Assembly: GCF_007992835.1 (NCBI RefSeq)
Contig: NZ_BKBA01000003.1
Location: forward strand, 186,001 to 250,000
DNA: 64,000 bases
From: Knoellia locipacati
Lineage (GTDB): Bacteria; Actinomycetota; Actinomycetes; Actinomycetales; Dermatophilaceae
Direction of reading: 5' to 3'
The notes under the pieces were generated by a model. The model did not search any database, was not told the origin of the DNA, and saw only the letters and a program-made list of their open reading frames with translations. The stretch's first letter is position 1, and the number at the start of each line of letters is the position of its first letter. Positions 1 through 64,000 of this stretch are shown here, piece by piece. Position numbers and translations under genes: made by a program.

Positions 1-1
1 C

Positions 2-190
2 GGACGCTGGGGACGGCATACGGAGGTCGTGGAGGCGGTGACCACCGCGCTCGCCGACGCGGGAGGCGTCGCCACCACGGTCGAACGCGCCGGCATCACC
101 GACGACGCACCCCTCACCGGAGCCCGGATCCACGCTCTCGGCGAGTTGCTCGCAACGTGGTCCGCGCAGCCGGGCACCGTGTCAACATGA
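2..190 (+). CDS. C-terminal end of an unidentified protein (5' cut off)
   Basis: An open frame runs from the window edge to a TGA at 188-190 and gives 62 residues with no start inside the window. Composition (alternating Val/Ala/Glu helix, then GARIHALGELLATW near the end) looks like a genuine alpha-helical C-terminus and codon usage is GC3-rich like its neighbours. I do not recognise the family. It precedes the permease gene by 162 bp and may belong to the same catabolic region. The stop is followed by a 13-bp palindrome (CCGTGT G ACACGG, 203-215) that could end or regulate transcription. Confidence 0.5.
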   Translation, partial: GRWGRHTEVVEAVTTALADAGGVATTVERAGITDDAPLTGARIHALGELLATWSAQPGTVST

Positions 191-250
191 CGCGTATGAC
201 AGCCGTGTGACACGGGCCACCCCGAGTTGCCAACGGTCCGCGGGCTCCCC

Positions 251-294
251 TGTCAGAGATTGACGAATGTCCCGGAGGACCGCACAACTAGCGT
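251..294 (+). promoter_or_regulatory. Promoter/operator region of the nucleobase permease
   Basis: A TAGCGT hexamer at 289-294 fits the actinobacterial -10 pattern TANNNT; the same hexamer precedes the gene at 12852. Upstream, 251-264 carries TGTCAGAGATTGAC. Its core recurs in front of the hyuA gene (7739-7749 direct, 7778-7788 inverted), so it may bind a shared regulator. No well-spaced -35 for TAGCGT is visible. Confidence 0.4.
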
Positions 295-1864: not shown

Positions 1865-1871
1865 GACTCAC

Positions 1872-1958: not shown

Positions 1959-2861
1959 GTGAAACCCGCACCGTTCGTGCACCACTCCCCCCGCACGCTC
2001 GACGAGGCCGTCGCGGTCCTCGGTGACGTGGGGCACGACGGCAAGGTCCTCGCCGGAGGCCAGAGCCTCATCCCGGTGCTCAACATGCGGCTCGCGCAGC
2101 CCGCGCACCTCGTCGACATCAACCGGGTGGCCGGCCTCGACACCGTGACCGTCACCGACACCTCCGTGCGTGTCGGTGCCATCGTGCGGCACGCGCAGCT
2201 CGAGAAGCACGACGGCGCGTATGCCGTCCTCCCCCTCCTGCGTCAGGCGCTCCGCAACGTGGCCCACCCGGCCATCCGCAACCGCGGCACCACGGTCGGC
2301 TCCATCGCGCACGCCGACGCCGCCGGTGAGATGCCCTCGATCGCCGTCCTCACCGACGCCGTCATCGAGGCGATCGGGCCGCGCGGTCGACGCGAGATCG
2401 CAGCGCGCGAGTTCTTCGAGGGGCCGCTCCAGACGCTGCTCGAGGCCGACGAGATCCTCGAGGCCGTGCGCTTCGGACGTTTCGCCCCCGGCACCCGCAC
2501 CGCGTTCCTCGAGTCCGCCCGCCGCCACGGCGACTACGCCCTCGCCGGGCTCGGCGTCGCCGTCGACGTCGAGGGCGACGGACCCGACGCGGTCGTGCGC
2601 GGTGCGCGTGCGGCATACGTCTCGGTCACGGACATCCCCGTCGTCCTCGACCTCTCCGAAGCCGTTGCGGGACAGCGGGTCTCGTCGGCGAGCTGGGACG
2701 GCGTCGAGGAGCTCGTGCAGGCGGGTATCGCGCCCGAGGCCGACATCCACGCGAGCAGCGACTACCGCCGCGCGCTCGCCGTCGAGCTCACCAGGCGGGC
2801 GCTGACCACTGCAGCCACGACCACCGAGCCGGCGACCACCACGACCGAGGGACACGCATGA
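1959..2861 (+). CDS. Molybdenum hydroxylase, FAD-binding medium subunit (CoxM-like)
   Basis: A 300-residue FAD-binding subunit of a xanthine oxidase-family hydroxylase. It passes electrons from the iron-sulfur subunit to the acceptor. FAD-contact motifs AGGQSLIP (about residues 32-39) and NRGTTVGS (about 107-114) are present, followed by a CO dehydrogenase flavoprotein C-terminal domain. The start is the GTG at 1959, chosen because AAGGAG lies at 1945-1950 and because the family begins with a K-P-A-x-F-like segment; the frame is open further upstream but without similarity. The stop overlaps the next ATG (ATGA), so the subunits are translationally coupled. Confidence 0.88.
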   Translation: MKPAPFVHHSPRTLDEAVAVLGDVGHDGKVLAGGQSLIPVLNMRLAQPAHLVDINRVAGLDTVTVTDTSVRVGAIVRHAQLEKHDGAYAVLPLLRQALRNVAHPAIRNRGTTVGSIAHADAAGEMPSIAVLTDAVIEAIGPRGRREIAAREFFEGPLQTLLEADEILEAVRFGRFAPGTRTAFLESARRHGDYALAGLGVAVDVEGDGPDAVVRGARAAYVSVTDIPVVLDLSEAVAGQRVSSASWDGVEELVQAGIAPEADIHASSDYRRALAVELTRRALTTAATTTEPATTTTEGHA

Positions 2862-3391: not shown

Positions 3392-5826
3392 CCACCCGCC
3401 AGTTCGGCGCCCCCGTCCAGCGCAAGGAGGACCCGCGCCTCGTCACCGGCAACGGGCGCTACCTCGACGACCTGGGGCACACGGCATACGAGGTCGCCTT
3501 CGTCCGCAGCCCGCACGCCCACGCGCGGATCACCGACATCGACGTCGACGGCGCGCTCGAGGTCGACGGGGTCATCGCCGTCTACACCCACGAGGACCTC
3601 GACGGTCCGGTCGGCGACCGCCTCCCGCTGCTCATCCCCCACCCGAGCATCGTCGCCGGGCGCACCGGCCACGCCCTGGCCAAGGACGACGTCAACCACG
3701 TCGGCGAGGCCATCGTCATGGTCGTCGCGCGCGACCGCTACCTCGCCGAGGACGCCGCCCAGCGCATCGTCGTGAGCTACGACTTCCTGCCTCCCATCGT
3801 CGGGCTGGAGAAGTCCCGTGACGGCGAGGGTCTCGTCCACGACGACGCACCGGGCAACGTCGCGGCACACCTGCTCCAGGAGGTCGGCAACGTCGAGGCC
3901 GCGATGGCCAAGGCGCCGCGCACCCTCACCCTCGACCTCGAGATCGAGCGCAGCGCGTGCATGCCGATGGAGGGCAAGGGCGTCCTCGCGCACTGGGACG
4001 CCGACGAGCAGCGGATGCGCATCCACTCGTCCACGCAGACCACGACCGGTGTGCGCGCCGCCGTCGCCTCCAAGCTCCAGCTGCCCCTCGCCCAGGTCGA
4101 GTGCATCGCGCCCGACGTCGGCGGCGGCTTCGGCGTCAAGATCATGCACCCGTGGCCGGAGGAGGTGCTCATCCCGTGGGCCGCGCGCAGGCTCGACCAC
4201 GACGTCAAGTGGACCGAGGACCGCCGCGAGCACTTCACCTCCAGCGCCCATGAGCGCGGCCAGCTCCAGCAGGTCACCGTCGGGTTCGACGACGACGGGC
4301 GGCTGCTCGCCCTCGACGTGAAGTTCTGGCACGACAACGGCGCCTACCTCCCCTATGGCGTCATCGTCCCGATCATCACCGCGACCCAGCTGCTCGGCCC
4401 CTACAAGCCGCAGAACTACCGCGTCGAGTTCTGGTCGATGTACACCAACACCGTTCTCGTGACGCCCTATCGGGGCGCCGGCCGCCCCCAGGGCTGCTTC
4501 GCGATGGAGCGGACGATGGACGCCATCGCCGCCGAGCTCGGCATCGACCGCACCGAGGTCCGCTCGCGCAACTTCATCCAGCCCGAGGAGATGCCCTACG
4601 ACCAGGGCCTGCTCTTCCAGGACGGCCGCCCGCTCAAGTACGACTCGGGCGACTTCCCCGCCTCCCTCGCCAAGCTCAAGGCGCTCGTGGGCTGGGACGA
4701 CTTCACGGCATACCGGGAGCAGGCGGAGGCCGAGGGGCGCAAGGTCGGTCTCGGCATCGGCTGCTACGTCGAGGGCACCGGAGTCGGCCCCTACGAGGGC
4801 GGGCACGTCCACGTCGAGACGAGCGGACGGGTCAACGTCGCCACCGGCCTCACCACCCAGGGCCAGGGGCACCAGACGATCCTCGCCCAGATCGTCGCCG
4901 ACGAGCTCGGCGTCTCGATCGACGACGTCCACGTCACCACCGGTGACACGAGGCGGATGCCGTATGCCGTGGGGACGTTCGCGTCGCGCGGTGCCGTGAT
5001 GTCGGGCAACGCCGTGGCACTGGCCGCGCGTGCGGTGAGGGCCAAGGCGCTGCGGATCGCCGCCGACGCGCTCGAGGTCAGCGAGGCCGACCTCCAGATC
5101 GAGGACGGCACGATCAGCGTCAAGGGCGCACCGCACGCCTCCATCGCGCTGTCGACCGTGGCCGTGATGTCGAACCCGCTCCGCTACGCCTTCGACGAGT
5201 CGGCCAAGGCCGCGACGCAGTTCGCCGGCGCGTTCGACCCCGACAAGCCGCCGGTCGCCGACGACGACGAGCCCGGCCTCGAGGGCAAGGACTACTACTC
5301 GCCCACGCAGGCGACCTTCGCCAACGGCATGCACGCCGCCATCGTCGAGACCGACCCGGTCACCGCCGAGATCACGATCCTGCGCTACTGCGTCATCCAC
5401 GACTGCGGCACCGTCGTCAACCCGATGATCGTCGAGGGCCAGGTCCACGGCGGCGTCGCGCAGGGCGTCGGCGGCGCGCTCTACGAGCGGATGGCCTACG
5501 ACGAGACCGGGCAGCTGCTCAACGCGTCGTTCATGGACTTCCTCATCCCCTACGCCTCCGAGGTCCCGCACATCGAGACCGACCACCTCGAGACGCCCTC
5601 GCCCCTCAACCCGTTGGGGATCAAGGGTGCCGGCGAGGCAGGCACCATCCCCGTCACCGCCGTCATCGCGTCGGCCATCGAGGACGCCGAGGGCTTCCCG
5701 ATCCGCTCGATGCCCATCAGCCCGACCGAGCTCTGGGACCTGCGACGTGAGCACGCCGCCGCCGCGCAGTCCACGAGCGCCTCGACCCCGACCACGACGA
5801 CGACCCCGACCCAGGAGTCCGCATGA
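3388..5826 (+). CDS. Molybdenum hydroxylase, catalytic large subunit (CoxL/XdhB-like)
   Basis: An 812-residue Mo-cytosine-dinucleotide-binding catalytic subunit. Visible are the Gly-rich VGGGFGVK (about 243-250), TPYRGAGRPQ (about 358-367) and GAGEAGTIP with the conserved active-site Glu near 748. The loop reads PYRGAGR, not the AYXCSFR of true form I CO dehydrogenase, so this is not a CO-oxidising CoxL of that type. Such enzymes hydroxylate nucleobases, aldehydes or N-heterocycles. Beside a uracil-type permease and a barbiturase-family gene, uracil/thymine dehydrogenase (EC 1.17.99.4) is the best candidate; a purine hydroxylase is the alternative. The start is GTG 3388, overlapping the previous stop. 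Confidence 0.88.
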   Translation: MTTRQFGAPVQRKEDPRLVTGNGRYLDDLGHTAYEVAFVRSPHAHARITDIDVDGALEVDGVIAVYTHEDLDGPVGDRLPLLIPHPSIVAGRTGHALAKDDVNHVGEAIVMVVARDRYLAEDAAQRIVVSYDFLPPIVGLEKSRDGEGLVHDDAPGNVAAHLLQEVGNVEAAMAKAPRTLTLDLEIERSACMPMEGKGVLAHWDADEQRMRIHSSTQTTTGVRAAVASKLQLPLAQVECIAPDVGGGFGVKIMHPWPEEVLIPWAARRLDHDVKWTEDRREHFTSSAHERGQLQQVTVGFDDDGRLLALDVKFWHDNGAYLPYGVIVPIITATQLLGPYKPQNYRVEFWSMYTNTVLVTPYRGAGRPQGCFAMERTMDAIAAELGIDRTEVRSRNFIQPEEMPYDQGLLFQDGRPLKYDSGDFPASLAKLKALVGWDDFTAYREQAEAEGRKVGLGIGCYVEGTGVGPYEGGHVHVETSGRVNVATGLTTQGQGHQTILAQIVADELGVSIDDVHVTTGDTRRMPYAVGTFASRGAVMSGNAVALAARAVRAKALRIAADALEVSEADLQIEDGTISVKGAPHASIALSTVAVMSNPLRYAFDESAKAATQFAGAFDPDKPPVADDDEPGLEGKDYYSPTQATFANGMHAAIVETDPVTAEITILRYCVIHDCGTVVNPMIVEGQVHGGVAQGVGGALYERMAYDETGQLLNASFMDFLIPYASEVPHIETDHLETPSPLNPLGIKGAGEAGTIPVTAVIASAIEDAEGFPIRSMPISPTELWDLRREHAAAAQSTSASTPTTTTTPTQESA

Positions 5827-6485
5827 AGATCTCCGGCACGGCCACCATGGCCGCCTCCCCCGAGCAGGTGTGGACCGCGGTCCACGACCCCGCCGTCCTC
5901 GCACGCTGCATCCCCGGGTGCCAGTCGCTGCGCGAGCTCTCACCCGGCCGCTACGCCATGACCGTCATGGCGGGTGTCGCGGCGATCAAGGGCTCGTACG
6001 ACGGCGAGGTCGCGATCACCGACGTCACCGAGCCGACCGCCTTCACGATGAAGGCCGAGGGCGCCGGCGCTCCGGGCACGATCGCGACGACCGTCGACGT
6101 CTCGCTCGCGCCGGGTGAGGGCGGCGGCACGGCGATCTCCTACGAGGCCGACGCCATCGTCGGCGGACCCATCGGCGGTGTCGGCCAGCGCATGCTCGCC
6201 GGCGTCGCCCGCAAGATGGCCGGCCAGATGTTCACCGCCCTCGACCGCGACATCGCAGGCGAGCGTCCCGCAGCCGCCGCACCCGCGGCTGTCGGTGCGG
6301 GGGCCGTCGCTGGTGGCGCGGGCGTGCCCGCACCCGTCGGCGCACAGCAGACCGGCGTGTATGCCGGCTCCGCGGCTTCCGCTGCGGCCGGCGGTTCCGG
6401 CTCGGGTTTTGTCCAGGGCGCCCTCTTCGGAGCGGGCGTCGCACTCGCCGGCGTCGTCGTCGGCTGGCTCATCGGAGGTCGCTGA
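5823..6485 (+). CDS. CoxG-like SRPBCC protein with C-terminal membrane anchor
   Basis: A 220-residue protein. Residues 1-145 form a CoxG/SRPBCC lipid-binding fold (opening MKISGTATM, then a GCQSL segment). A low-complexity Ala/Gly linker (about 150-195) follows and ends in one transmembrane helix closing with VVVGWLIGGR. In carbon monoxide oxidisers CoxG links the dehydrogenase to the membrane and its quinone pool; by analogy this protein may dock the Mo hydroxylase so that electrons enter the respiratory chain rather than NAD. It overlaps the large-subunit stop by ATGA, and its own stop overlaps the next ATG by one base. Confidence 0.85.
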   Translation: MKISGTATMAASPEQVWTAVHDPAVLARCIPGCQSLRELSPGRYAMTVMAGVAAIKGSYDGEVAITDVTEPTAFTMKAEGAGAPGTIATTVDVSLAPGEGGGTAISYEADAIVGGPIGGVGQRMLAGVARKMAGQMFTALDRDIAGERPAAAAPAAVGAGAVAGGAGVPAPVGAQQTGVYAGSAASAAAGGSGSGFVQGALFGAGVALAGVVVGWLIGGR

Positions 6486-7738: not shown

Positions 7739-7788
7739 CAGAGATTGACAAGGCGACCACCCGGCATACCCCGCTTGAATCTCTGACA
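7739..7788 (+). promoter_or_regulatory. hyuA upstream site: paired CAGAGATT motifs around a TTGACA
   Basis: CAGAGATTGACA at 7739-7750 contains a perfect -35-like TTGACA (7745-7750). An inverted copy, AATCTCTGACA (7778-7788), ends at the hyuA ATG. The 11-base core CAGAGATTGAC also occurs at 253-263 before the permease. I see no convincing -10 element. The arrangement fits an operator for a regulator shared by the two units. Confidence 0.4.
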
Positions 7789-9893
7789 TGGCTCAGCGAC
7801 GCATCAGGATCGGGATCGACACCGGCGGCACGTTCACGGACGTGGTGGCCTTCGACGAGGACTCGGGGGATCTCGTCACGACGAAGACCCCCAGCACCCC
7901 CAGCAACCCCGCCGACGGGTTCATCAACGGCATCGACAAGGTGCTCGGTCTGATGGAGGCCAGCGGCGACGACATCACCGCCGTCTGCCACGGCACCACG
8001 GTGGCGACCAACAAGCTCCTCGAGGGCAAGGTCGAGCAGCTCGGGTTCATCACGACCGAGGGCTACGAGTTCATGCTCGAGATCGCCCGCCAGGCCGTGC
8101 CCGACGGCTACGGCAACTCCTACTTCTGGGTCAAGCCGGCGCGCATCGTCCCCGCCGAGTCGGTCCGCACCGTCGGTGGCCGCTTCGACTTCGAGGGCAA
8201 CGAGATCCGCCCCTTCGACGAGGAGAGCGCCGTCGCCGCGGCCCGCTGGTTCAAGGACCAGGGCATCACGACGATCGGCGTCTGCTTCCTGCACTCCTAC
8301 GCCAACGACGAGCACGAGCTGCGGATGCGCGAGATCCTGCGCGAGGAGCACCCCGAGGCGATCGTGTCGATCTCGAGCGAGGTGCTGCGCGAGTACCGCG
8401 AGTACGAGCGTTCGATGACCACCCTCGTCGACGCCGCGGTCAAGCCCAACGTCAGCCGCTACGTCACCAACATCCACGAGCGGCTCGACGGCTTCACCCA
8501 GGGCTCCGGCCGCCAGATCCCCTTCTACATCATGAAGTCCAACGGTGGCGTCCTCTCCGCGGACGAGGTCGTGCACCAGCCGATCACGACGACGATGTCC
8601 GGCCCCGCCGCCGGTGCGCTCGGCGCCGCGCTCATCGCGCAGAAGGCCGGCTTCGACAAGATCCTCACCTGTGACGGTGGCGGCACCTCGACCGACGTCT
8701 CCGTCGTCCTCGACGGCGAGCCCACCCTCACGACCGAGGGCACCGTCGGCGCCTACCCGAGCAAGATCCCGATGATCGACGTCGTCACCGTCGGCGCGGG
8801 CGGCGGCTCGATCGCTTGGGTCTCGCCCGAGGGCGCCCTCAAGGTCGGCCCGCACTCGGCCGGCGCCGACCCGGGCCCGCTCTGCTACGGCAAGGGCGGC
8901 ACCGAGCCGACCATCACCGACGCGCACGTCACCCTCGGCCGGATCCCGCCGCACCTCCTCGGCGGTGAGATCCCGCTCGACGTGGAGGCCGCGCGCACCG
9001 GCGTGCAGGCCCTCGCCGAGCGGCTCGGTCTCGACTTCGAGCGCTGCGCCACCGGCATCCTCGAGATCTCCGCGTGGAACCAGGCCAACGCCCTGCGCCA
9101 GGTGAGCGTCAAGCGTGGGCTCGACGTCCGCGACTTCATGCTCACCACCTTCGGCGGCTCCGGCTCGCTGCTCGCCTGCCGCCTCGTCGACATCCTCGAC
9201 CTCGCCGGTGTCGTCGTCCCGCCGAACCCGGGCAACGTCAGCGCCTTCGGCCTGCTCACCGTCGACGTCAAGAACGACTACGTGCAGACGCAGGTCGCCA
9301 AGCAGGCCGCGCTCGACCACGCCGCGATCGAGAAGACCTTCTCCTCGCTCACCGAGCGCGCCGCCGCCGCCCTGTCCAAGGAGGGCTTCGCCGCGGAGGA
9401 GCACCAGTTCACCCGCACCGTCGACCTGCGCTACTTCGGCCAGGCCTACGAGGTCCGCGTCAACGCACCGACCGACGCCGCCATCGACGACGCGTATGCC
9501 GCGAAGGTCGCAGAGGCCTTCCACGACGAGCACCGCCAGCTCTACGGCTACGACTTCCGGAACGACCCGACTCAGCAGGTCGAGTGGGTCAACCTGCGCG
9601 TCACCGGCGTCGGCCCGATCACGCGCCCCGAGCTGCAGGAGCTGGCCCCCGTCGCCGACGACGCAGGCTCGGTCGAGGACCGTGCCCGCCGCTCGACCCG
9701 TGAGGTCTGCTTCGACGCCGAGGACGGCTACGTCGAGACCGGCGTCTGGTGGCGCCCCGATCTCGCCGTCGGCGACACGATCACCGGCCCGGCGATCATC
9801 GAGGAGTTCGGCTCCACGGTCCCCGTGCACCCCGGCTTCGTCGTCCGCGTCGACACCTACGGCAACCTCGTCATCACCAAGGAGGACAAGTGA
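7788..9893 (+). CDS. Hydantoinase/oxoprolinase A subunit (HyuA family)
   Basis: A 701-residue protein of the ATP-dependent hydantoinase/oxoprolinase/acetone carboxylase beta group. The N-terminal ATPase-fold signature GIDTGGTFTDVV is at residues 9-20. DGGGTSTDVS (about 300-310) and a Gly-rich VGAGGGS loop mark the second half of the actin-like fold. Such subunits phosphorylate a carbonyl oxygen to drive ring opening or carboxylation together with a B subunit, which follows directly. The substrate cannot be read from sequence; a cyclic ureide or amide is expected from the context. The ATG has no Shine-Dalgarno and lies directly behind the inverted CAGAGATT motif. Confidence 0.87.
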   Translation: MAQRRIRIGIDTGGTFTDVVAFDEDSGDLVTTKTPSTPSNPADGFINGIDKVLGLMEASGDDITAVCHGTTVATNKLLEGKVEQLGFITTEGYEFMLEIARQAVPDGYGNSYFWVKPARIVPAESVRTVGGRFDFEGNEIRPFDEESAVAAARWFKDQGITTIGVCFLHSYANDEHELRMREILREEHPEAIVSISSEVLREYREYERSMTTLVDAAVKPNVSRYVTNIHERLDGFTQGSGRQIPFYIMKSNGGVLSADEVVHQPITTTMSGPAAGALGAALIAQKAGFDKILTCDGGGTSTDVSVVLDGEPTLTTEGTVGAYPSKIPMIDVVTVGAGGGSIAWVSPEGALKVGPHSAGADPGPLCYGKGGTEPTITDAHVTLGRIPPHLLGGEIPLDVEAARTGVQALAERLGLDFERCATGILEISAWNQANALRQVSVKRGLDVRDFMLTTFGGSGSLLACRLVDILDLAGVVVPPNPGNVSAFGLLTVDVKNDYVQTQVAKQAALDHAAIEKTFSSLTERAAAALSKEGFAAEEHQFTRTVDLRYFGQAYEVRVNAPTDAAIDDAYAAKVAEAFHDEHRQLYGYDFRNDPTQQVEWVNLRVTGVGPITRPELQELAPVADDAGSVEDRARRSTREVCFDAEDGYVETGVWWRPDLAVGDTITGPAIIEEFGSTVPVHPGFVVRVDTYGNLVITKEDK

Positions 9894-11894: not shown

Positions 11895-12764
11895 ATGACC
11901 GAGGTGCTCGTCATCGGCGCGGCCGGCAAGACCGGTCGCGCCGTGACGCGCGCGCTGCTGGCGCGTGGGGTCACCGTGCGGGCTGCGGTCCGTCCCGGGT
12001 CGAGCAGTGCGGTGTATGCCGGCGTGCCCGGTCCCGGGACCGACGCGGCTCCCGAGGTCCACACCGTCCCCGTGGACCTCGAGTCCGGGGCCGGGCTGCC
12101 GGTCGCGATGGCCGGCGTCAGCGGGGTCTACCACCTCGCACCCAACGTCCACCCCGACGAGGTCGGGATCGCGAGACGGGTCGCGGAAGCCGCTGTGGCA
12201 GAGGGCGTCTCACGCTTCGCCTTCCACTCCGTGCTGCACCCGGACGACGCGTCGATGCCCCACCACCTGCGCAAGGCCGAGGCCGAGCGTGAGATCCGGT
12301 CGTTCGTCAGGACCGCCACGGTCCTGCGTCCGGCGGCGTACCACCAGAACCTCGTCGACGCCGCTCTCGCGGGACGGATGGTCGTCCCCTACTCGCTCGA
12401 CTCGGCGTTCACGAACGTCGACCTCGACGACGTGGCCGAGGTGGCGGCGCTCGTGCTCTGCGACGGCAGGCTCGAGGACGAGACCCTCGACCTCGCCGGT
12501 CCCGAGGCCCTCACCGTCCGGGAGATGGCCGCGCGGGCCACGGCCGTCCTGGGTCGTCCGGTCGAGGCAGCGGAGCTCTCCCGTGACACCTGGACCACGG
12601 GTCCCGGCGCATCGCTCACGGCGCAGGCCCGCGACGACCTGCTGGCGATGTTCCGGTCCTACGACCGCGACGGGCTCGTCGGCGGCGTCGGCACGCTGCG
12701 TGACCTCCTCGGACGCGAGCCGCGCACCTGGACCGACGTGCTCGCCGACGCCGCCACTGCCTGA
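11895..12764 (+). CDS. NmrA-like NAD(P)-binding reductase/regulatory protein
   Basis: A 289-residue atypical short-chain dehydrogenase. It has an N-terminal Rossmann nucleotide-binding motif (VIGAAGKTGRAVTRAL, residues 5-20) but no obvious Tyr-x-x-x-Lys catalytic pair, as in NmrA/azoreductase-like proteins. The ATG at 11895 is used because it directly precedes the motif; it starts 7 bp after hyuB stops, so it is likely co-transcribed. The function in the pathway is unknown; a redox or sensor role is possible. Confidence 0.75.
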   Translation: MTEVLVIGAAGKTGRAVTRALLARGVTVRAAVRPGSSSAVYAGVPGPGTDAAPEVHTVPVDLESGAGLPVAMAGVSGVYHLAPNVHPDEVGIARRVAEAAVAEGVSRFAFHSVLHPDDASMPHHLRKAEAEREIRSFVRTATVLRPAAYHQNLVDAALAGRMVVPYSLDSAFTNVDLDDVAEVAALVLCDGRLEDETLDLAGPEALTVREMAARATAVLGRPVEAAELSRDTWTTGPGASLTAQARDDLLAMFRSYDRDGLVGGVGTLRDLLGREPRTWTDVLADAATA

Positions 12765-14904: not shown

Positions 14905-15015
14905 GGTGAGCACACGGCATACGGCTGGGTTTTGGCAGAAGGTGACACGCTGCGGGGTCCGTCTTGCCACGACCTGCCCGATCACGAGAGCAACCGCGCT
15001 CCCTAGGCTCGGGAC

Positions 15016-17842: not shown

Positions 17843-17894
17843 CGCCGCAACGGCATACCGACGGGGTGTGCCTCCCCGAGCAGGAGGTGGGTCG

Positions 17895-35575: not shown

Positions 35576-35634
35576 GCACCGAACGCGGCCCAGAGGGCCC
35601 CGGATCGGGAGTCGGACGGCATACGGTGTCGTGC

Positions 35635-54234: not shown

Positions 54235-54876
54235 TCAGCGCCAGAGGGTGTTGACCTCGGAGGCCTCGACCGAGTCCGGGTACGGGTTGGTGCACGACGG
54301 GCCGGGGCCACCACCGGACATGAGCTTGCTGCACGGCTGCGTGTAGCGGTCCGGGAGGCCGAGCGCGTGCCCGGTCTCGTGCGTGACGATCCGCAGCGGC
54401 GCGTACGTGTTGGCCTGCGAGTAGTCCATGAAGACGTAGCCGTCGCCGTTGCCGCTGCCGTAGTAGTACGAGCCGCGCGAGTCGTTGCCCTCGTAGTACT
54501 TGAGGGCGCCGGCCGCGCCGTCGCGCTCGACGAGCTGGACGTTGCTCACCCGGGAGTTCCAGATGGCCGCGTTCTGGTCGATGAGCGCGTCGAAGCTCGG
54601 TGCCTGCGAGTCGTCGTAGTAGACGACGTAGGCCGCGGCCCGGCTCTGCTTCGCGCCGGAGGCGTCCTCGCGGGCGACCTCCTTCTTGGCCTCGGCGAGC
54701 TGCTTCCCGAGGGCCGCCTGGATCTTGGGGTCGAGCGAGCCCTTCGTGTATGCCGCGACGCCGCGGCTGTCGCCGTGGTCGGGTGCGGCGACGGCCCCGG
54801 TGGGGGCGCTGGTCAGCGCAGCGGCACCTGCGGCGGTGACGAGTGCAGCGGCGAGGGATCGGCGGAGGCGTGCCAT
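54235..54876 (-). CDS. Secreted snapalysin-like metalloprotease (M7 type)
   Basis: A 213-residue protein. A signal peptide is clear ([21 protein letters not shown], cleavage near APTGAVAA-A). A charged helical pro-region (about 40-75) precedes a compact catalytic domain with [13 protein letters not shown], which is the HExxHxxGxxD zinc signature of snapalysin. [19 protein letters not shown] precedes it, as in Streptomyces SnpA. ATG 54876 has GAGGAA upstream. Likely a small secreted neutral protease. Confidence 0.87.
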
Positions 54877-55379: not shown

Positions 55380-56162
55380 TCACTCACGTCTCCCATTGTC
55401 ACCGCTCGCGTCGACCTGGTCGGCAGCGGCCCGCCCAGCCGCCTCCTGCCGCCCCTCGTCCCGCACGATCCGCCACCACATGTAGAGCGCGAACGCCGCG
55501 AAGGCCCACCACTGCAGTGCGTATGCCGCGTTGCGCCACTTGAACCCCGTCTCCCCCGACGGGGTGGGGACCCGCTGCATCGACCCGAGCGACGCGGGTG
55601 CGGCGGCGGGCTCCTCCTCCTGCTGGAAGACGAAGGCGTTGTAGAGGTCGCCGGGCCAGCGTCCGACGAGGACCGAGGTGTCGACCGAGGCGAGCTGACC
55701 CTGCGGAGGTGCGTCACCGGCATACGGGGACTCGGGTGGAGCCAGCCCACCCGTGACGGTGACGGTTCCGGTCGGGACCGGCGGCAGGTCCGAGGGCGAG
55801 GTGACGAAGCCGCGCAGCACCGGCAGGGTCGCCCCGCTGGACGCGACCCGCAGCGGCGCCACGACCCAGAAGCCGGTGCGTCCGTCGAGGCGGCGGTTCG
55901 CGACGACGACCTGGTCGGTCCCGAACTCGCCCGTCGCTGTCACCGGGCGCGTGCCGAGCTCCCCGGGGAAGTCGGAGTGGGGTCGCAGGACGGTCTGGAC
56001 CGGCACCGGTTGCTGCGACCGCGCCCTGTCCAGCGACTCACGCAGGGCCTCGTCCTCGGCGACCCCGAGCTGCCACCGCCCGAGCTGGACGAAGGCGATG
56101 ACGACGAGCACGGCGACCGCGAGCAGCGCGAGGTTGCGGGGCTTGAGCGCGGTCCGGAGCAC
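55380..56162 (-). CDS. SURF1-family cytochrome oxidase biogenesis protein
   Basis: A 260-residue protein with an N-terminal transmembrane helix (NLALLAVAVLVVIAFVQLGRWQL), a periplasmic domain with RPVTATGEF, RTGFWVVAPLR and VLRGFV, and a C-terminal helix (YALQWWAFAAFALYMWW). The GRWQL after the first helix and the YALQW before the second are SURF1 hallmarks. It assists haem a insertion into the aa3-type oxidase. GTG 56162 lies 7 nt after TAGGCT on the minus strand (leaderless). Confidence 0.92.
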   Translation of the reverse strand: MLRTALKPRNLALLAVAVLVVIAFVQLGRWQLGVAEDEALRESLDRARSQQPVPVQTVLRPHSDFPGELGTRPVTATGEFGTDQVVVANRRLDGRTGFWVVAPLRVASSGATLPVLRGFVTSPSDLPPVPTGTVTVTGGLAPPESPYAGDAPPQGQLASVDTSVLVGRWPGDLYNAFVFQQEEEPAAAPASLGSMQRVPTPSGETGFKWRNAAYALQWWAFAAFALYMWWRIVRDEGRQEAAGRAAADQVDASGDNGRRE

Positions 56163-56241: not shown

Positions 56242-58047
56242 ATGCCGACGAAACCCTGGCCCTATGCCCTCGAGGCCGATGCCACTCCCCCGACCGACGC
56301 CGACCGCCTCCTGCTCTGGCTGGTGCGGCGGCAGTGGCGCACCGTCGTCGGCGGTGCCGCGTTCGGCATCCCGTGGATGTTGTCGATCGCCCTCGTGCCC
56401 GCCGCCATCGGCAAGGCCATCGACGACGGGCTCGTCGCGCGCGACGGTCGGGCGCTGTTGCTCTGGTCCGGCGTCATCATGGGCATGGGTCTCGTCAGCG
56501 CCGCCACGACCAACCTGCGGCACTGGTTCGCGGTGCGCAACTGGCTCTTCGCGGCGTTCCGATCGGCGATCGTCACCGAGCGCGCGGTCCGTCGCGCCGG
56601 CCCGGCCCTGACCCGCGACAAGCCGGCCGGCGAGGTGCTCACCGCCTTCGCCAACGACTTCTGGAAGGTCGGCCAGGTCTTCGACGTGTCGGCGCGGTTC
56701 ACCGGGGCGATCGCGAGCTTCGTCGTCGTCTCGGTCATCCTGCTCAAGGGCTCGGTGCTGCTCGGGCTCGTCATGCTCGTCGGCGGACCGCTGCTGCTCG
56801 CCTCGCTCGCGTTCGTCATGCGCCCGCTCCAGAAGCGCCAGGAGGCGCAGCGGACCGAGTCCGGCGCCCTCACCGCGCTCGGGGCCGACACCGTGTCGGG
56901 CCTTCGCGTGCTCCGTGGCGTCGGTGGTGAGGAGACCTTCCTGAGCCGGTATGCCGGTCAGTCCGGTCGCGTCCGTGCCGCCGGTGTGCGGCTGTCGGGG
57001 GTCCAGGCGCTGCTCGACGCCTCGCAGGTGCTGCTGCCCGGGGTGTTCGTCGTCGTCGTCACCGGGCTCGGCGCCCACCTCGCGGTCGCCGGTGACATCA
57101 CGCCGGGGCAGCTCGTCGCGTTCTACGGCTACACGGCGTTCCTCACGATGCCGCTGCGCACGGCGACCGAGTTCGTCAACAAGCTCATCACCTCACGGGT
57201 CATGGCGCGCCGCCTCGTCGCGATCCTCGTCGCCGAGCCCGACCACCCGACGGGCCAAGGGGCCGACTTATTGCCCCATTGGGACGCTTCCGACCCAGGT
57301 TCGCCTCCCGCGGACCGGTCCCAATGGGGCAATAAGTCGGACGTTCCGGCAAGAAGCGAGCTCGTGGACCCGGCGTCGGGCGTGCGCGTGCTGCCCGGCG
57401 AGCTCACCGCGATCGTGTCGGCGAACCCCGAGGACTCCGCGGCCATCGCCGCCCGCCTGGGTCGCACCGTCGCGGGGCGCCACGGCGTCACCCTGGGCGG
57501 TGTCGCGATCGACGACCTGCCGATCGAGCTCGTGCGCCGCACCATCGTCGTGTCGCAGTCGGACCCGCACCTGTTCAGCGGGCCCGTCCGCCGCGAGCTC
57601 GGCGCCGAGACGACCGACCCCCAGGGGTCCCCCGACGACGACGCGCTGCTGGCCGCCCTCCACACCGCCGACGCGATGGATGCGATCGAGTCGATCGACG
57701 GCGGCCTCGACGGTGAGCTCGAGGAGCGCGGCCGCTCGCTCTCGGGCGGGCAGCGCCAACGGCTCGCCCTCGCCCGCGCGCTCCTGCGCGACCCCGAGGT
57801 CCTCGTCCTCGTCGAGCCCACGAGCGCGGTCGACGCGCACACCGAGGCCCGCATCGCCGAGCGGATCCCCAAGCACCGCAACGGATCCACGACCGTCATC
57901 GTCACGGCGAGCCCGCTCGTGCTCGACCGGGCCGACCGCGTCCTCCTCGTCGAGGACGGCACCGTGACCACCGAGGGGACGCACCGCGACCTCGTGCGCA
58001 ACCACCCGGCATACCGACGCGTCGTGCTGCGCGGAGAGGAGGACTGA
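56242..58047 (+). CDS. ABC exporter half-transporter with degenerate Walker A/B (subunit 1)
   Basis: A 601-residue type IV ABC protein. Six membrane helices (about 30-330) precede an ATPase domain (about 370-600). The signature RSLSGGQRQRLALARALL is intact, but Walker A is replaced by VSANPEDSAAIAARL and Walker B reads VLVLVEPTSAVD with the usual Asp lost. It can therefore supply only the signature half of an ATP site, with subunit 2 giving the rest. An inverted repeat at 57263-57340 is translated in the linker between the domains (ADLLPHWDASDPG, then DRSQWGNKSDV). The start at ATG 56242 is chosen by family length. Confidence 0.88.
   Translation: MPTKPWPYALEADATPPTDADRLLLWLVRRQWRTVVGGAAFGIPWMLSIALVPAAIGKAIDDGLVARDGRALLLWSGVIMGMGLVSAATTNLRHWFAVRNWLFAAFRSAIVTERAVRRAGPALTRDKPAGEVLTAFANDFWKVGQVFDVSARFTGAIASFVVVSVILLKGSVLLGLVMLVGGPLLLASLAFVMRPLQKRQEAQRTESGALTALGADTVSGLRVLRGVGGEETFLSRYAGQSGRVRAAGVRLSGVQALLDASQVLLPGVFVVVVTGLGAHLAVAGDITPGQLVAFYGYTAFLTMPLRTATEFVNKLITSRVMARRLVAILVAEPDHPTGQGADLLPHWDASDPGSPPADRSQWGNKSDVPARSELVDPASGVRVLPGELTAIVSANPEDSAAIAARLGRTVAGRHGVTLGGVAIDDLPIELVRRTIVVSQSDPHLFSGPVRRELGAETTDPQGSPDDDALLAALHTADAMDAIESIDGGLDGELEERGRSLSGGQRQRLALARALLRDPEVLVLVEPTSAVDAHTEARIAERIPKHRNGSTTVIVTASPLVLDRADRVLLVEDGTVTTEGTHRDLVRNHPAYRRVVLRGEED
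57263..57340. repeat. Perfect 22-bp inverted repeat inside an ABC transporter gene
   Basis: Arms 57263-57284 and 57319-57340 are fully complementary around a 34-nt centre. The outer CCGACTTATTGCCCCATT matches the repeat at 54151-54225 in 15 of the first bases. It is translated in frame in the linker between membrane and ATPase domains. The A+T-rich TTATTG core is alien to the local codon usage, so insertion of a mobile or amplified palindrome is likely. Confidence 0.88.
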
Positions 58048-58050: not shown

Positions 58051-59844
58051 ATGACACCGATCCTCACCCAGATCGGCGACACCGACCACGCGAAGCGCTC
58101 GCTGCCCATCGCGAGCCGCCAGACCGTCGTCGCGCACACGCGGGTCCTCCTGCGCGACCACCGCCGGCCGCTGCTCGTCGTGCTCGCGCTGCACGGCCTC
58201 GCCGCGCTCGTCGGCCTCGTCGGGCCGTGGGTCGTCGGGCAGGTCGTCGAGGAGGTCACACGGTCGGGTGCGCAGGCCGCGAGCCTGCGCCGGATCGACG
58301 TCCTCATCGCCCTCCTCGTCGCCGCGATCCTCACCCAGACCGTCCTCACGTGGTTCGCCCGCAGGGCGGCGTTCATCCTGTCCGAGCACGTCTTCGCGCG
58401 GCTGCGTGAGGACTTCGTGCGCGACGCCGTGCGGCTCCCGCTGTCGACACTCGAGCGCGCCGGCACCGGCGACCTCGTGGCGCGCACGACCAACGACATC
58501 GACGCGATGACCCACGTCATCCGCTTCGGCATCCCCGCGATCGTCGTGTCCGTCATGACCGTGACCGCGACCGTCGTCGCCGCGGTCCTCACCTCACCGC
58601 TGGCCGCGCTGGCGCTGCTCACTCCCCTGCTCGTCCACGTGCCCTCGAGCCGCTGGTACCTCAAGCGCGCCGGACAGGTCTATCTCTGGGAGCACGCGAG
58701 CTATGCCCGGCTCAACTCCGTCGGCGCCGAGACCATCGACGGTCTGCGCACGATGGACAACCTCGGACTGTCCGCCGAGCGCGGCGCCCGGTTCGACGAG
58801 GCGCTCGACGAGGCCGGGCGTGCCGAGCGGGTCGGCGTCGGCCTGCGGTTGCGCTGGTTCCCGTGGCTGGAGATCGGCTTCTTCCTGCCCATCGCCGTGT
58901 CCGTCCTCTGGGGCGGCTGGCTCGCCTGGAACGGCCACGTCTCGATCGGCGCCGCCACCGCGGTGACGCTCTACATCCAGCAGATGCTCGACCCTCTGGG
59001 CGACCTCATCAGCTGGCTCGACGAGATCCAGTTCGCTGCGACCTCCCTGTCGCGTGTCCTCGGTGTCGGCGAGGTGCCACCCGACCGCGTCGCCACCGGT
59101 GAGCAGCCGCTCGGCGAGACGATCGAGGTCGAGGACGTCCGCTACTCCTACCGCGAGGGGCGCGACGTCCTGCACGGTGTCTCGCTGACCCTGCGACCCG
59201 GTGAGCGGCTCGCGATCGTCGGGCCGTCCGGCGCCGGCAAGTCAACGCTCGGGCGCCTCATGGCCGGCATCGACGGCCCTCGCACGGGCCGCGTCACCGT
59301 CGGTGGCGTCCCGCTCGTCGACCTCACCCTGCCCACGCTGCGCGGGGAGGTCGCGCTCGTGACCCAGGAGCACCACGTCTTCGTCGGCACCGTCGGCGAG
59401 AACCTCCGCCTCCCGCGCCCGTCCGCCTCCGACGACGACGTGTATGCCGCGCTCGACGCGGTCGACGCGGCCGGATGGGTCCGGGCGCTGCCCGACGGTC
59501 TCGACACCACCGTGGGCTCGGGTGGGCACGTCCTCACCGAGGCCCAGGCGCAGCAGCTCGCCCTCGCCCGTCTCGTCCTGGCCGACCCGCACACCCTCGT
59601 CCTCGACGAGGCGACCTCGCTGCTCGACCCTCGCGCCGCGCGCCACCTCGAGCGCTCGCTCGCGGCGGTGACGCAGGGCCGCACCGTCGTCGCGATCGCG
59701 CACCGGCTGCACACGGCATACGACGCCGACCGGGTCTGTGTCGTCGAGGACGGTCGGATCACCGAGCTCGGCACGCACGACGAGCTCATCGCGCGGGACG
59801 GCGCGTACGCCGCGCTGTGGCGCGCCTGGCGAGACGAGGACTGA
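58051..59844 (+). CDS. ABC exporter half-transporter with degenerate signature (subunit 2)
   Basis: A 597-residue type IV ABC protein with six helices (about 40-320) and an ATPase domain with intact Walker A VGPSGAGKSTLGRLM, Walker B HTLVLDEATSLLD and H-loop IAHRL. The signature reads LTEAQAQQLALARL instead of LSGGQ. Together with subunit 1 this yields one complete ATP site (Walker A/B from here, LSGGQ from subunit 1) and one fully degenerate site. It starts 3 bp after subunit 1. The substrate is unknown: lipids, peptides or drugs are typical. Confidence 0.9.
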   Translation: MTPILTQIGDTDHAKRSLPIASRQTVVAHTRVLLRDHRRPLLVVLALHGLAALVGLVGPWVVGQVVEEVTRSGAQAASLRRIDVLIALLVAAILTQTVLTWFARRAAFILSEHVFARLREDFVRDAVRLPLSTLERAGTGDLVARTTNDIDAMTHVIRFGIPAIVVSVMTVTATVVAAVLTSPLAALALLTPLLVHVPSSRWYLKRAGQVYLWEHASYARLNSVGAETIDGLRTMDNLGLSAERGARFDEALDEAGRAERVGVGLRLRWFPWLEIGFFLPIAVSVLWGGWLAWNGHVSIGAATAVTLYIQQMLDPLGDLISWLDEIQFAATSLSRVLGVGEVPPDRVATGEQPLGETIEVEDVRYSYREGRDVLHGVSLTLRPGERLAIVGPSGAGKSTLGRLMAGIDGPRTGRVTVGGVPLVDLTLPTLRGEVALVTQEHHVFVGTVGENLRLPRPSASDDDVYAALDAVDAAGWVRALPDGLDTTVGSGGHVLTEAQAQQLALARLVLADPHTLVLDEATSLLDPRAARHLERSLAAVTQGRTVVAIAHRLHTAYDADRVCVVEDGRITELGTHDELIARDGAYAALWRAWRDED

Positions 59845-61616: not shown

Positions 61617-61636
61617 AGTCTGCGGGACCGCAGCGC

Positions 61637-63430
61637 TCAGACCGTCTGCAGCGCCGGCATACCGAGATCGACCCGACGCACCTCGGGCACGGCCGGGTGT
61701 GCCGCCGGCACGGGGTCGAGGCGGCGGTAGTCCTCGCCCTGCACGGGACGCTCGTCGACGTCGCCCTTGTTGGGCCACAACGACATCGCGCGCTCCGCCT
61801 GCGCGGTGATCGTCAGCGACGGGTTGACCCCGAGGTTCGCCGAGACCGCGGACCCGTCGACCACGGAGATGCCCGGGTGGCCCCAGAGGCGGTGGTAGGG
61901 GTCGATGACACCGCTCGTCGGGCTCTCGCCGATCGCCACGCCACCGAGGAAGTGCGCGGTGAGCGGCACGTCGAACACCTCGCCCCAGGTGCCACCGGCC
62001 ACGGTGTAGTCGCCGGTCACCTCCTGGAGCCGGCGCGCGACGGCGTGCATCGAGTCGTGCCCCTCCTTGATGAAGCTCGGGTTGGGCAGCCCGTGCCCCT
62101 GCTGCGAGGTGAGCCGGCGCCGCCCGAAGAGGCCACGGCGACCCGACACCCGCAGCGAGTTGTCGTGCGTCTGCATGACGAGCCCGATGACGGTGCGCTC
62201 GCTCCACCGCGTCGTCATCGGGAACTGCCTGAGCAACGCCTGGGGCTGCTTCGCGAGCTCGATGAGGAACTGGACCGGTCGCGGCCACCGCGTGTCACCG
62301 GGGACCATGAGCGTCGTGAGCAGCCCCATCGCGTTGGAGCCGGGGCCGTAGCGGACGTTCTCGACGTGCGTGTCCTCGGTGGGGTGGAACGACGCCGTGA
62401 TGGCGACGCCCTCGGCGAGGCCCGCCTCGGGGTGCGGGTGCTGGGTCATCGCGCCGAGCAGCGCCTCGCTGTTGGTGCGGGTGAGGTGACCGAGCCGGTC
62501 GGAGATGCGCGGCAGCTCGCCCTCGTCACGCATCGCGTGCAGCAGCGTCTGGGTGCCCCAGGTCCCGGCGGCGACGACGACGTGGCGTGCCGTGATGACG
62601 CGTGGGTCGCGGCCGTGGACGGGTCCGGTCCGCTCGTGCAGGACACGGTGGACGGCTCCGCCGGTCCCGTATGCCGGGTCCGCTCCTTCACTGCCCGGCA
62701 CGACTCCCAGCCGGGTCACGGTGCGCATCGGCTCGATGACGACACCGAGGGCCTCGGCGAGGTGGAGGTAGTTCTTGCGCAGCGTGTTCTTGGCGCCGTG
62801 ACGGCAGCCGACCATGCAGTTGCCGCACTCGACGCACCCGGTGCGGCGCGGCCCGGCCCCGCCGAAGTAGGGGTCCTCGACCTCGACGCCGGGCTGTCCG
62901 AAGAAGACGCCGACGGGGGTCTTGCGGAAGGTCTCGGGCACGCCCATCTCGGTGGCGGCGTCGCGCCAGATCTGCTCGACCGGGCCCTCGCACGGGTTCT
63001 CGACGACACCGAGCATCGCCGACGCCGTCGCGTAGTGCGGCTCCAGCTCGCTCGACCAGTCGGTGATGTGGCCCCACTGCTGGTCGCGGAAGAACGCCTC
63101 CGGCGGGACGTAGAGCGTGTTGGCGTAGTTGAGCGAGCCGCCCCCCACTCCCGCACCGGCGAGGATCATGACGTCGGGCAGCCGGTGCACCCGCTGGATG
63201 CCGTAGCAGCCGAGCTGCGGCGCCCAGAGGTAGTTGCGCAGGTCCCACGAGGTCGCGGCGTGGTCCTCGTCCTCGAAGCGCCGGCCGGCCTCGAGCATGT
63301 GCACCGAGTAGCCCTTCTCGGCCAGGCGCAGCGCGGCCACCGACCCGCCGAAGCCGGTCCCGATGACGACGACGTCCACGTCGACGTTCACGTCGTCGTT
63401 CACATCCACGGCCGAGTCACCACCGCTCAC
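61637..63430 (-). CDS. GMC-family oxidoreductase, cholesterol oxidase-like (ChoD type)
   Basis: A 597-residue FAD enzyme. FAD-binding VVVIGTGFGGSVAALRLAEKG (about residues 19-36) is followed by the GAGVGGGSLNYAN segment, and the C-terminal DGSAVSANLGVNPSLTITAQAERA contains the GMC His/Asn region. A ferredoxin-like Cys cluster CVECGNCMVGC (about 195-205) is present, as in mycobacterial ChoD-type proteins. It should oxidise a sterol or hydroxylated lipid. GTG 63430 overlaps the stop of the aldehyde dehydrogenase gene. Confidence 0.87.
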   Translation of the reverse strand: MSGGDSAVDVNDDVNVDVDVVVIGTGFGGSVAALRLAEKGYSVHMLEAGRRFEDEDHAATSWDLRNYLWAPQLGCYGIQRVHRLPDVMILAGAGVGGGSLNYANTLYVPPEAFFRDQQWGHITDWSSELEPHYATASAMLGVVENPCEGPVEQIWRDAATEMGVPETFRKTPVGVFFGQPGVEVEDPYFGGAGPRRTGCVECGNCMVGCRHGAKNTLRKNYLHLAEALGVVIEPMRTVTRLGVVPGSEGADPAYGTGGAVHRVLHERTGPVHGRDPRVITARHVVVAAGTWGTQTLLHAMRDEGELPRISDRLGHLTRTNSEALLGAMTQHPHPEAGLAEGVAITASFHPTEDTHVENVRYGPGSNAMGLLTTLMVPGDTRWPRPVQFLIELAKQPQALLRQFPMTTRWSERTVIGLVMQTHDNSLRVSGRRGLFGRRRLTSQQGHGLPNPSFIKEGHDSMHAVARRLQEVTGDYTVAGGTWGEVFDVPLTAHFLGGVAIGESPTSGVIDPYHRLWGHPGISVVDGSAVSANLGVNPSLTITAQAERAMSLWPNKGDVDERPVQGEDYRRLDPVPAAHPAVPEVRRVDLGMPALQTV

Positions 63431-64000
63431 CGCAGCCCCAGCCCCTTCATGGCCCGCAGGGCGAGGGTGAGCCCCTTGGTGTAGGTCTCCTGCGAGACAC
63501 CGGGCAGCGTGGCGAGGGGCGCGATGACGTGCTGCGCCGTGACGTTCTGGCTCTCGGTGTACTTGAGGATGCCCTCGCGTCCGTGGCGGCGGCCGATGCC
63601 CGAGGCCTTCATGCCACCCATCGGCGCGCCGGTGCTCGCCCAGGCGGGGATGAAGCCGTCGTTGATGTTGACCGTCCCCGTGCGGATCCGCGAGGCGATC
63701 CGGCGGGCGCGGCGGACGTCGCGGCTCCAGACCGAGGCGTTGAGGCCGTACTCGGTGTCGTTGGCCAGCTCGACGGCCCGGTCGTCGGAGTCGACCTCGT
63801 AGAGCGACACGACCGGTCCGAAGGTCTCGCCGTCCCGGCACTCCATGTCGGGGGTGACGCCGGACAGCACCGTCGGCTCGTAGACGAACGGACCGATGTC
63901 GGGCCGCGCGCGACCACCGGCGAGCACGATGGCGCCCTTGGCCCGCGCGTCGTCGACGTGCCGGGTCACGGTGTCGAGCTGGGCCTGTCCGACGAGCGAG
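63427..64000 (-). CDS. NAD(P)-dependent aldehyde/succinate-semialdehyde dehydrogenase, C-terminal part (5' end outside window)
   Basis: The frame is open to the window edge and encodes the last ~190 residues. LVGQAQLDTVTRHVDDA, GPFVYEPTVLSGVTPDME, ETFGPVVSLY and NDTEYGLNASVWSRD with INDGFIPAWASTGAPMGGMKASGIGRRHG are typical of GabD2-like succinate-semialdehyde dehydrogenases. The catalytic Cys lies upstream, outside the window. The last ~45 residues are the family's usual C-terminal extension. It is coupled to the GMC gene by GTGA, suggesting a joint oxidation of an alcohol to an acid. Confidence 0.88.
   Translation of the reverse strand, partial: SLVGQAQLDTVTRHVDDARAKGAIVLAGGRARPDIGPFVYEPTVLSGVTPDMECRDGETFGPVVSLYEVDSDDRAVELANDTEYGLNASVWSRDVRRARRIASRIRTGTVNINDGFIPAWASTGAPMGGMKASGIGRRHGREGILKYTESQNVTAQHVIAPLATLPGVSQETYTKGLTLALRAMKGLGLR

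Follow-up and report, generated by a model that had tools for sequence, protein, structure and literature searches.

Introduction

Excerpts of a 2025 paper state that selection of kin DNA through a short, enriched motif is known from two families alone, the Neisseriaceae and the Pasteurellaceae, and give densities of the uptake signal sequence (USS) of 31 to 913 per Mb across 150 Pasteurellaceae genomes (PMC12616744). According to passages of other papers, both the USS and the DNA uptake sequence (DUS) of the Neisseriaceae also occur as inverted, terminator-like pairs behind genes (PMC2397512, PMC7811141), the DUS spacing in Neisseria matches the conversion tract length (PMC2397512), and the average USS spacing in Haemophilus influenzae is approximately 1 kb (PMC7811141). 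In this work, the octamer CGGCATAC was analyzed in a 64-kb stretch of Knoellia locipacati (contig NZ_BKBA01000003.1, positions 186,001 to 250,000; family Dermatophilaceae), which is referred to as the window. The octamer differs from its own reverse complement and is hence non-palindromic. With 707 copies per Mb in the K. locipacati genome, it falls within the density range of the Pasteurellaceae USS, and on balance we regard it as probably a DNA uptake signal of the USS/DUS kind, evolved independently in a Gram-positive family. Among the literature matches listed, with most subscription papers and bioRxiv outside, no actinobacterial uptake signal or over-represented word was found for this family, nor did any title or visible abstract present the octamer as a genomic motif.

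Results and Discussion

Abundance of the octamer

An earlier, sequence-only reading of the window had counted about 59 copies by eye, 29 and 30 on the two strands, and the count proved exact (Table 1). It had put the chance expectation at about two, and the real excess is even larger, as 100 dinucleotide shuffles of the window (GC content 71.6%, previously given as roughly 72%) contained 1.02 copies on average and four at most. In the whole genome (3,587,375 bases in 19 contigs), 1,269 + 1,266 = 2,535 copies were found, while the octamer read backwards, which served as control word, occurred 50 + 49 = 99 times. The suggested comparison with a Markov model was performed on a sample of 414 kb, comprising the window and 19 further stretches of the genome, and yielded 298 copies versus 1.4 expected (order 3, motif masked), an excess of about 200-fold. 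Nearly every GCATAC hexamer had been noticed to lie inside the octamer, and this holds for 59 of 59 hexamers in the window and 298 of 308 in the sample.

The flanks are not random either. In the window, A precedes the octamer at 32 and G follows it at 38 of the 59 sites, and in the sample the base on the 5' side is A in 164 of 297 cases and T in merely five. The 24 one-letter variants occurred 218 times in the sample, with 173 expected, and the same model applied to 220 kb of motif-poor relatives gave 167 versus 120; by this comparison, no halo of near-matches beyond the model error is visible. The strands are also equal when GC skew is taken as a proxy for polarity, with 123 copies on the G-rich strand and 116 on the other in the 19 stretches. 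The Illumina P7 adapter also contains the octamer, but carry-over from it was rejected as an origin: just two window sites extend as ACGGCATACGAG, the sites are conserved in relatives, and G003, a single-contig genome, bears the octamer as well.

Selection on the DNA

Coding and intergenic positions were assigned with our own simple gene caller. In the sample, 229 copies are coding (0.61 per kb), 64 intergenic (1.65 per kb) and five lie on boundaries, so that the intergenic density is 2.7 times the coding density; by gap type, it reaches 3.6 per kb in convergent, 2.0 in tandem and 0.96 in divergent gaps. The five copies which the sequence-only reading had placed in gaps (14915, 17851, 29102, 31722, 35617) were all intergenic by these calls. 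The coding copies are distributed over the six combinations of frame and strand as 100, 83, 22, 18, 5 and 1. Tyr-Ala or Ala-Tyr is encoded by 183 of the 229, and four kinds of codon pair are common among them, on both strands. The octamer had been suspected of forcing rare codons into genes, and indeed 100 of the 193 TAT and 22 of the 28 ATA codons in the sample lie inside it.

For the recommended comparison with relatives, the window was aligned to syntenic stretches of eight other Knoellia genomes at 82–87% identity, whereby gapped cells were counted as not conserved and 265 cells beyond the aligned stretches were not scored. The octamer was letter-perfect in 155 of 207 site-by-genome cells, compared to 28–42% for random octamers, and mismatches per base amounted to 0.066 within the octamer and 0.182 in the flanks. 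Selection on the octamer acts at the DNA level, as follows from its occurrence on both strands and in several frames, the excess in gaps, the load of TAT codons and the conservation amid diverging flanks. The same conclusion, selection on DNA rather than protein, had been drawn before, and one codon pair without an excess in gaps does not describe the data.

Copies at close range form a class of their own. Among the 15 pairs in the sample that are no more than 60 bp apart, 14 are inverted, and the one exception (37917/37941) belongs to a 24-bp duplication. Eleven of the 14 inverted pairs are intergenic, and in each of these a stop codon lies no more than about 65 bp away. Five chosen pairs fold as strong hairpins with stems of approximately 20 bp (z −6.7 to −9.5), and by folding, the inverted pairs behind genes are predicted to be terminator-like elements.

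Orientation-specific spacing

The spacing was evaluated for 293 copies in 404 kb, approximately 11% of the K. locipacati genome. At distances of 250–500 bp, three pairs in the same and 35 in opposite orientation were found, with 25.5 expected, and at 500–1,000 bp the counts were 19 and 46, with 50 expected. At the shorter range, pairs within genes (2 in the same and 17 in opposite orientation versus 15.1 expected) and pairs that span a gene boundary (1 and 18 versus 10.4) show the same picture. Distances between successive copies of the same orientation amount to 2.6 kb, and their coefficient of variation is 0.54, compared to 0.93 for random placement, and the copies per 20 kb on each strand vary with variances of 2.4 and 3.3 around a mean of 7.3. 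Three control octamers in the same DNA displayed no same-orientation exclusion. Within about 1 kb, same-orientation copies in this genome thus avoid one another, which does not apply to opposite ones. The lack of strand bias stated by the sequence-only reading stands with regards to the totals; however, the equal strands mask this local effect.

Stretches from the genus gave 2 same and 21 opposite pairs at 250–500 bp, with 22.3 expected. In the genome G033, which carries the one-letter variant CGGCATCC instead, 18 same and 56 opposite pairs were counted at 500–1,000 bp (45.7 expected), and the effect was weaker at 250–500 bp (16 same, 18 opposite, 23 expected). Since mutation, repair and codon biases have no memory over kilobases, an orientation-aware process with a range of about a kilobase must maintain the word, at least in Knoellia and in G033.

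Table 1. Positions of the octamer CGGCATAC and of its close pairs in the window (64,000 nucleotides).
Feature	Position	Strand	Remarks
CGGCATAC array, 59 copies (29 +, 30 -)	1..64000	.	one per 1.08 kb
CGGCATAC copy	14..21	+	
CGGCATAC copy	2219..2226	-	
CGGCATAC copy	2611..2618	+	
CGGCATAC copy	3482..3489	+	
CGGCATAC copy	4706..4713	+	
CGGCATAC copy	4962..4969	-	
CGGCATAC copy	6359..6366	-	
CGGCATAC copy	7762..7769	+	intergenic
CGGCATAC copy	9494..9501	-	
CGGCATAC copy	9975..9982	+	
CGGCATAC copy	11502..11509	-	
CGGCATAC copy	11709..11716	+	
CGGCATAC copy	12014..12021	-	
CGGCATAC copy	14499..14506	-	
CGGCATAC copy	14915..14922	+	intergenic
CGGCATAC copy	16313..16320	-	
CGGCATAC copy	17851..17858	+	intergenic
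CGGCATAC copy	18668..18675	-	
CGGCATAC copy	22180..22187	-	
CGGCATAC copy	23302..23309	-	
CGGCATAC copy	24233..24240	+	
Inverted pair (24761 +, 24783 -)	24761..24790	.	predicted terminator-like hairpin, stem 21 bp, fold -51 kcal/mol, z -7.0; between two - strand genes
CGGCATAC copy	24761..24768	+	left hairpin arm
CGGCATAC copy	24783..24790	-	right hairpin arm
CGGCATAC copy	27684..27691	-	
CGGCATAC copy	28057..28064	+	
CGGCATAC copy	29102..29109	-	intergenic (convergent)
CGGCATAC copy	30894..30901	-	identical in 8/8 genus relatives
CGGCATAC copy	30977..30984	+	
CGGCATAC copy	31722..31729	+	intergenic (divergent)
CGGCATAC copy	33078..33085	+	intergenic
CGGCATAC copy	33898..33905	-	
CGGCATAC copy	35617..35624	+	intergenic
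CGGCATAC copy	37115..37122	+	
Two same-orientation copies 24 bp apart	37917..37948	-	inside local 24-bp duplication (37909-37950), within gene
CGGCATAC copy	37917..37924	-	in 24-bp duplication
CGGCATAC copy	37941..37948	-	in 24-bp duplication
CGGCATAC copy	39941..39948	+	
CGGCATAC copy	40310..40317	-	
CGGCATAC copy	41062..41069	-	
CGGCATAC copy	41580..41587	+	
CGGCATAC copy	42963..42970	-	
CGGCATAC copy	43163..43170	+	
CGGCATAC copy	44687..44694	-	
CGGCATAC copy	46380..46387	+	
CGGCATAC copy	46500..46507	+	
CGGCATAC copy	46838..46845	-	
CGGCATAC copy	48634..48641	+	
CGGCATAC copy	49907..49914	-	
CGGCATAC copy	50110..50117	+	
CGGCATAC copy	51751..51758	-	
CGGCATAC copy	52032..52039	+	
CGGCATAC copy	54748..54755	-	
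CGGCATAC copy	55521..55528	-	
CGGCATAC copy	55718..55725	+	
CGGCATAC copy	56949..56956	-	
CGGCATAC copy	58007..58014	+	
CGGCATAC copy	59442..59449	-	
CGGCATAC copy	59714..59721	+	
CGGCATAC copy	61655..61662	+	
CGGCATAC copy	62669..62676	-	

Distribution and dialects in the family

The octamer was counted in 89 genomes of the family from 53 genera, K. locipacati included, and in 58 genomes from other families of the order. It reaches 939 to 4,724 copies in 51 of the family genomes and at most 293 in the other 38, with a clean gap between the two groups. The 51 rich genomes span 30 of the 53 genera, and all nine of Knoellia are among them; outside the family, no genome exceeds 167 copies. The reversed word is an imperfect control, as it is frequent in some rich genomes (G023: 1,142 against 453), partly because CGGCATAC followed by GGC contains it.

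Named genomes were scanned by an alignment of 14 of the 31 ComEC sequences, and the following statements refer to the best 80 loci. The octamer is abundant beside comEC in Knoellia remsis, whose ComEC is the closest named one to that of K. locipacati (74%), and in Phycicoccus elongatus, Humibacillus xanthopallidus, Terrabacter sp. Root85, Ornithinimicrobium cavernae and several others. Fewer copies were found in Arsenicicoccus bolidensis (6 in 22 kb) and Ornithinimicrobium sp. CNJ-824 (3 in 13 kb), none in Intrasporangium flavum and one uncultured Phycicoccus, and 0 to 3 at loci labelled as other families. The phage TJE1 carries two copies in 49 kb, equal to its count of the reversed word.

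Dialects were counted in 80 genomes of the family. The one-letter dialects vary at position 7, by genus. CGGCATCC occurs 3,816 to 3,949 times in G024, G071 and G033, which hold at most 272 copies of CGGCATAC, and both words are found together in G051 (2,195 CGGCATCC and 1,217 CGGCATAC) and G085 (2,099 and 1,189). A weaker excess of CGGCATCC in G009 (1,336) is not shared by G060 (614) of the same genus (g2), and the remaining genomes stay at or below about 225 per Mb. A further dialect, CGGCATTC, was found 3,135 times in G020 beside 1,025 copies of CGGCATAC, 730 times in G058 and at most 388 times elsewhere. Within the genera g17 and g44, with two genomes each, the dialects are concordant. In 34 of the 89 genomes, neither CGGCATAC nor CGGCATCC is in excess.

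Two genera, g37 and g38, carry an unrelated nonamer, CGAAGGGGG, with 1,311 to 1,939 copies in G044, G080, G045 and G081 (loci L013, L014, L033, L038 and L143-L150), on nearly equal strands. Its reversed control is found just 11 to 26 times in these four genomes, which hold at most 32 copies of CGGCATAC, and the nonamer itself occurs at most 80 times in the other 76. Close inverted pairs are present in G044 and G045, so that in these pairs, as in its excess and its balance between strands, the nonamer resembles a signal. Same-orientation exclusion is clear in G044 alone (3 pairs below 1 kb versus 13 expected) and was not seen in G080 or G045.

Mapped onto a tree of ComEC with 31 rows, the motif state is clustered, with six changes compared to a shuffled mean of about 10.5; this tree, which lacks G024, G071 and G033, represents one fast-evolving gene and reflects the phylogeny of the species poorly. 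It contains apparent losses, e.g., G075 among enriched rows, whose genus mate G032 has 1,062 copies. As a further dialect, CGGCGTAC in G047 was considered and rejected: it reaches just 106 copies in 140 kb versus 24 expected, overlaps with the CGTACG preference of other genomes and lacks same-orientation exclusion. Samples of G031, G047 and G075 contain a moderate excess of such CGTACG/CGTAC-type words (CGTACGCC, CGGCGTAC and CGCCGTAC). Furthermore, 20 kb of G030 (L009, contig 1, 1-20000) contain 27 copies of the 10-bp word AGTTCGACGG, probably in a repetitive gene or satellite array.

The octamer as a probable uptake signal

The sequence-only reading had listed an uptake or recombination signal among its candidates, which we retain, but left three classes open, and this was too weak a statement. 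If the octamer is an uptake signal, it would be bound in free DNA by a protein of the natural-transformation machinery at the cell surface or in the envelope, DNA of the same clade would be imported preferentially and then recombined, and each transformation event would spread the octamer by molecular drive, in addition to any benefit from kin DNA. Such a spread would explain the thousands of exact copies, their conservation and the excess in gaps and hairpins. The signal would be read one way, each copy favoring the strand or side toward which it points for import or exchange. Repeating it in that orientation within some 1–1.5 kb would therefore be redundant, whereas an opposite copy would serve the other strand. 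The directionality would then reflect single-strand import, uptake would be biased toward octamer-bearing DNA, and the reader would belong to the Tad/ComEA/ComEC machinery.

Parts of this machinery were searched for in 80 genomes of the family. In K. locipacati, ComEA (SLBB and helix-hairpin-helix) directly precedes ComEC, and a tad locus encodes a T2SSE ATPase, two T2SSF proteins, RcpC/CpaB, a ParA-like ATPase and a TadE/G-like protein. For the actinobacterium Micrococcus luteus, passages of a previous study report that transformation requires two tad loci and that comEA/comEC are present (PMC4322843). PilM of type IVa pili was found in 4 of the 80 genomes, and K. locipacati is not among them, which makes the known receptor type, a minor pilin such as ComP/ComN, unlikely.

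The tad locus lies within a contig end of 10.8 kb free of CGGCATAC (L253:9172-20000, contig 2 of G000), the longest gap seen, which may have been recently acquired or shielded from exchange. Another stretch of 9.0 kb without the octamer and with normal GC content (L254:1494-10508, contig 1 of G000) encodes response-regulator-like proteins (by eye) and, according to Pfam, an AMP-binding enzyme and a binding protein of the DctP type, and is possibly an accessory island. Both stretches were picked for study and not sampled; in the unpicked K. locipacati sample, the largest internal gap is 5.1 kb and the largest run at an end 7.3 kb.

Several observations weigh against the octamer as an oriented uptake signal. 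ComEC (79 of 80 genomes) and the pilin-like TadE (78 of 80) occur with or without the motif and therefore do not discriminate; their near-universal presence is compatible with uptake and no support for it. G041, the sole genome without a ComEC match, has 1,407 copies, although its 760 contigs suggest that the absence is perhaps an assembly gap. In the comEC neighborhood of 15 loci, no gene tracked the motif, and no receptor was found, as PilM, TadE, ComEC and the comEC neighborhood all fail to follow it. The spacing rule is not general: in smaller samples, it was suggestive in G074 and unseen in G067, with too few pairs in G046. In the genus stretches, opposite pairs are low as well at 500–1,000 bp (27 versus 43.7 expected), and these stretches represent a single region in eight genomes, which in part coincides with the window, and are hence not independent. 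The divergence around sites is without clear directional asymmetry (0.156–0.169 in all bins). Finally, excerpts of a study on H. influenzae describe uptake as independent of USS orientation (PMC1939737). As a separate observation, comEC of G086 matches in two pieces 40 kb apart (contig 46, 68443-109701), the smaller one weak; the gene looks interrupted, yet the genome keeps 1,513 copies of the octamer.

Alternative explanations

The most serious rival, which we nevertheless consider unlikely, is a Chi-like site: an intracellular helicase-nuclease, AdnAB or another one but not RecBCD, would read the octamer on one strand while resecting and switch to recombination. Such an enzyme would need a copy every few kilobases per strand, with same-orientation copies redundant and opposite ones independent, and an octamer active in one orientation directly fits both the exclusion and the per-strand regularity. 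Proteins with a PDDEXK_1 domain (PF12705) and long open frames, of the size of AdnA/AdnB, are also present in K. locipacati (1,051 aa) and its relatives. However, this domain was found in 80 of 80 genomes and is uninformative on the motif, and AdnAB is, to our knowledge, not known to read a Chi. Known Chi sites show a milder excess, far below that of the octamer, and are G-rich and biased to the leading strand, whereas CGGCATAC has no strand bias and forms hairpin pairs. Among the 46 genomes with an excess of CGGCATAC or CGGCATCC, 10 exceeded the cut-off for RecC, the Chi-reading subunit, compared to 19 of 34 others, and RecC is absent from all three Knoellia genomes tested, including K. locipacati. 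RecBCD is therefore disfavored as the common reader of CGGCATAC. For the G-rich CGAAGGGGG, RecC was present in 4 of 4 bearing genomes, and a RecBCD-Chi reading may apply to this word. The excess of about 200-fold, the hairpins behind genes and the one-letter dialects by genus are features of uptake signals, and on these grounds uptake is favored over a Chi-like function.

It is improbable that the octamer is a genome-wide site of a protein for chromosome organization, replication or segregation. Even spacing, genome-wide presence and DNA-level selection agree with such a site. A polarity like that of the FtsK-orienting polar sequences (KOPS) was rejected by the GC-skew counts given above, and a packing site would not be expected to have independent opposite copies standing back to back in hairpins. 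Moreover, the 34 genomes without excess, the different word in g37/g38 and the two long stretches without copies speak against it.

Still less probable is a recognition site of a restriction-modification or bacteriophage exclusion (BREX) system or an orphan methyltransferase. The word is non-palindromic, has adenines on both strands and is patchy among genera, as such a site could be; however, neither the 200-fold excess nor a kilobase-scale, orientation-specific spacing would be expected, and word and positions are conserved across the species of the genus. For the nucleoid and BREX/methylation candidates of the sequence-only reading, no positive evidence emerged, although no search aimed at restriction-modification or BREX systems was made, and neither the dialects nor the orientation-specific spacing would follow from them. 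An origin in mutation or codons (context-dependent mutation, Vsr-type repair, codon-pair preference), to which the share of Tyr-Ala/Ala-Tyr would point, is practically refuted by the gap excess, the four codon-pair kinds on both strands, the rare TAT and ATA codons concentrated in the octamer and a same-orientation exclusion absent from three control octamers.

Comparison with known systems

With regards to the uptake signal, passages on known signals describe a density, both orientations, terminator-like pairs, conservation and dialects that match the octamer (PMC2346458, PMC3630211). Like the Pasteurellaceae USS (Hin-USS, Apl-USS), it is a short, non-palindromic word with hundreds of copies per Mb in both orientations; it is enriched in gaps, forms inverted pairs behind genes, is conserved at its sites and has dialects, apparently by clade. 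In contrast to the USS, its host is a Gram-positive actinobacterium from a family with pilM in 4 of 80 genomes, and its orientation-specific spacing may be a further difference. With the Neisseriaceae DUS (eight dialects, receptor ComP) it shares one-base dialects, kilobase-scale spacing, terminator-like pairs and the use of two dialects in one genome, here G051, G085 and G020. Unlike the DUS, it occurs in a genome without pilM, hence with no sign of ComP-type pili, and in a family of which two genera use a wholly unrelated nonamer. HIP1 (highly iterated palindrome 1, GCGATCGC) of cyanobacteria is a very abundant octamer as well, but described in an excerpt as a palindrome linked to methyltransferases (PMC4390886), whereas CGGCATAC is non-palindromic and oriented.

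The orientation rule does not follow from the known traits of uptake signals. We tentatively propose, at somewhat less than even confidence, that the octamer is a directional genome mark: two interleaved, near-regular per-strand arrays with one site per about 2.6 kb, serving oriented single-strand import or exchange. This would be the third independent origin of self-recognizing uptake and the first Gram-positive one, with dialects and a complete change of word in one family, and with a per-strand logic that is undescribed for DUS and USS in the passages cited.

Conclusion

If the octamer is indeed an uptake signal, the family would add a third, Gram-positive example to the two known ones, lacking an outer membrane and, in nearly all genomes tested, pilM, which would mean that such signals evolve repeatedly. 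Its switches and losses (g25, g37/g38) would supply independent replicates on which drive and benefit could be told apart as causes of the spread. From the orientation-specific spacing, the reach of import or exchange away from a signal can be estimated quantitatively, and placing the octamer on DNA may enable the transformation of Knoellia, Terrabacter, Phycicoccus and their relatives.

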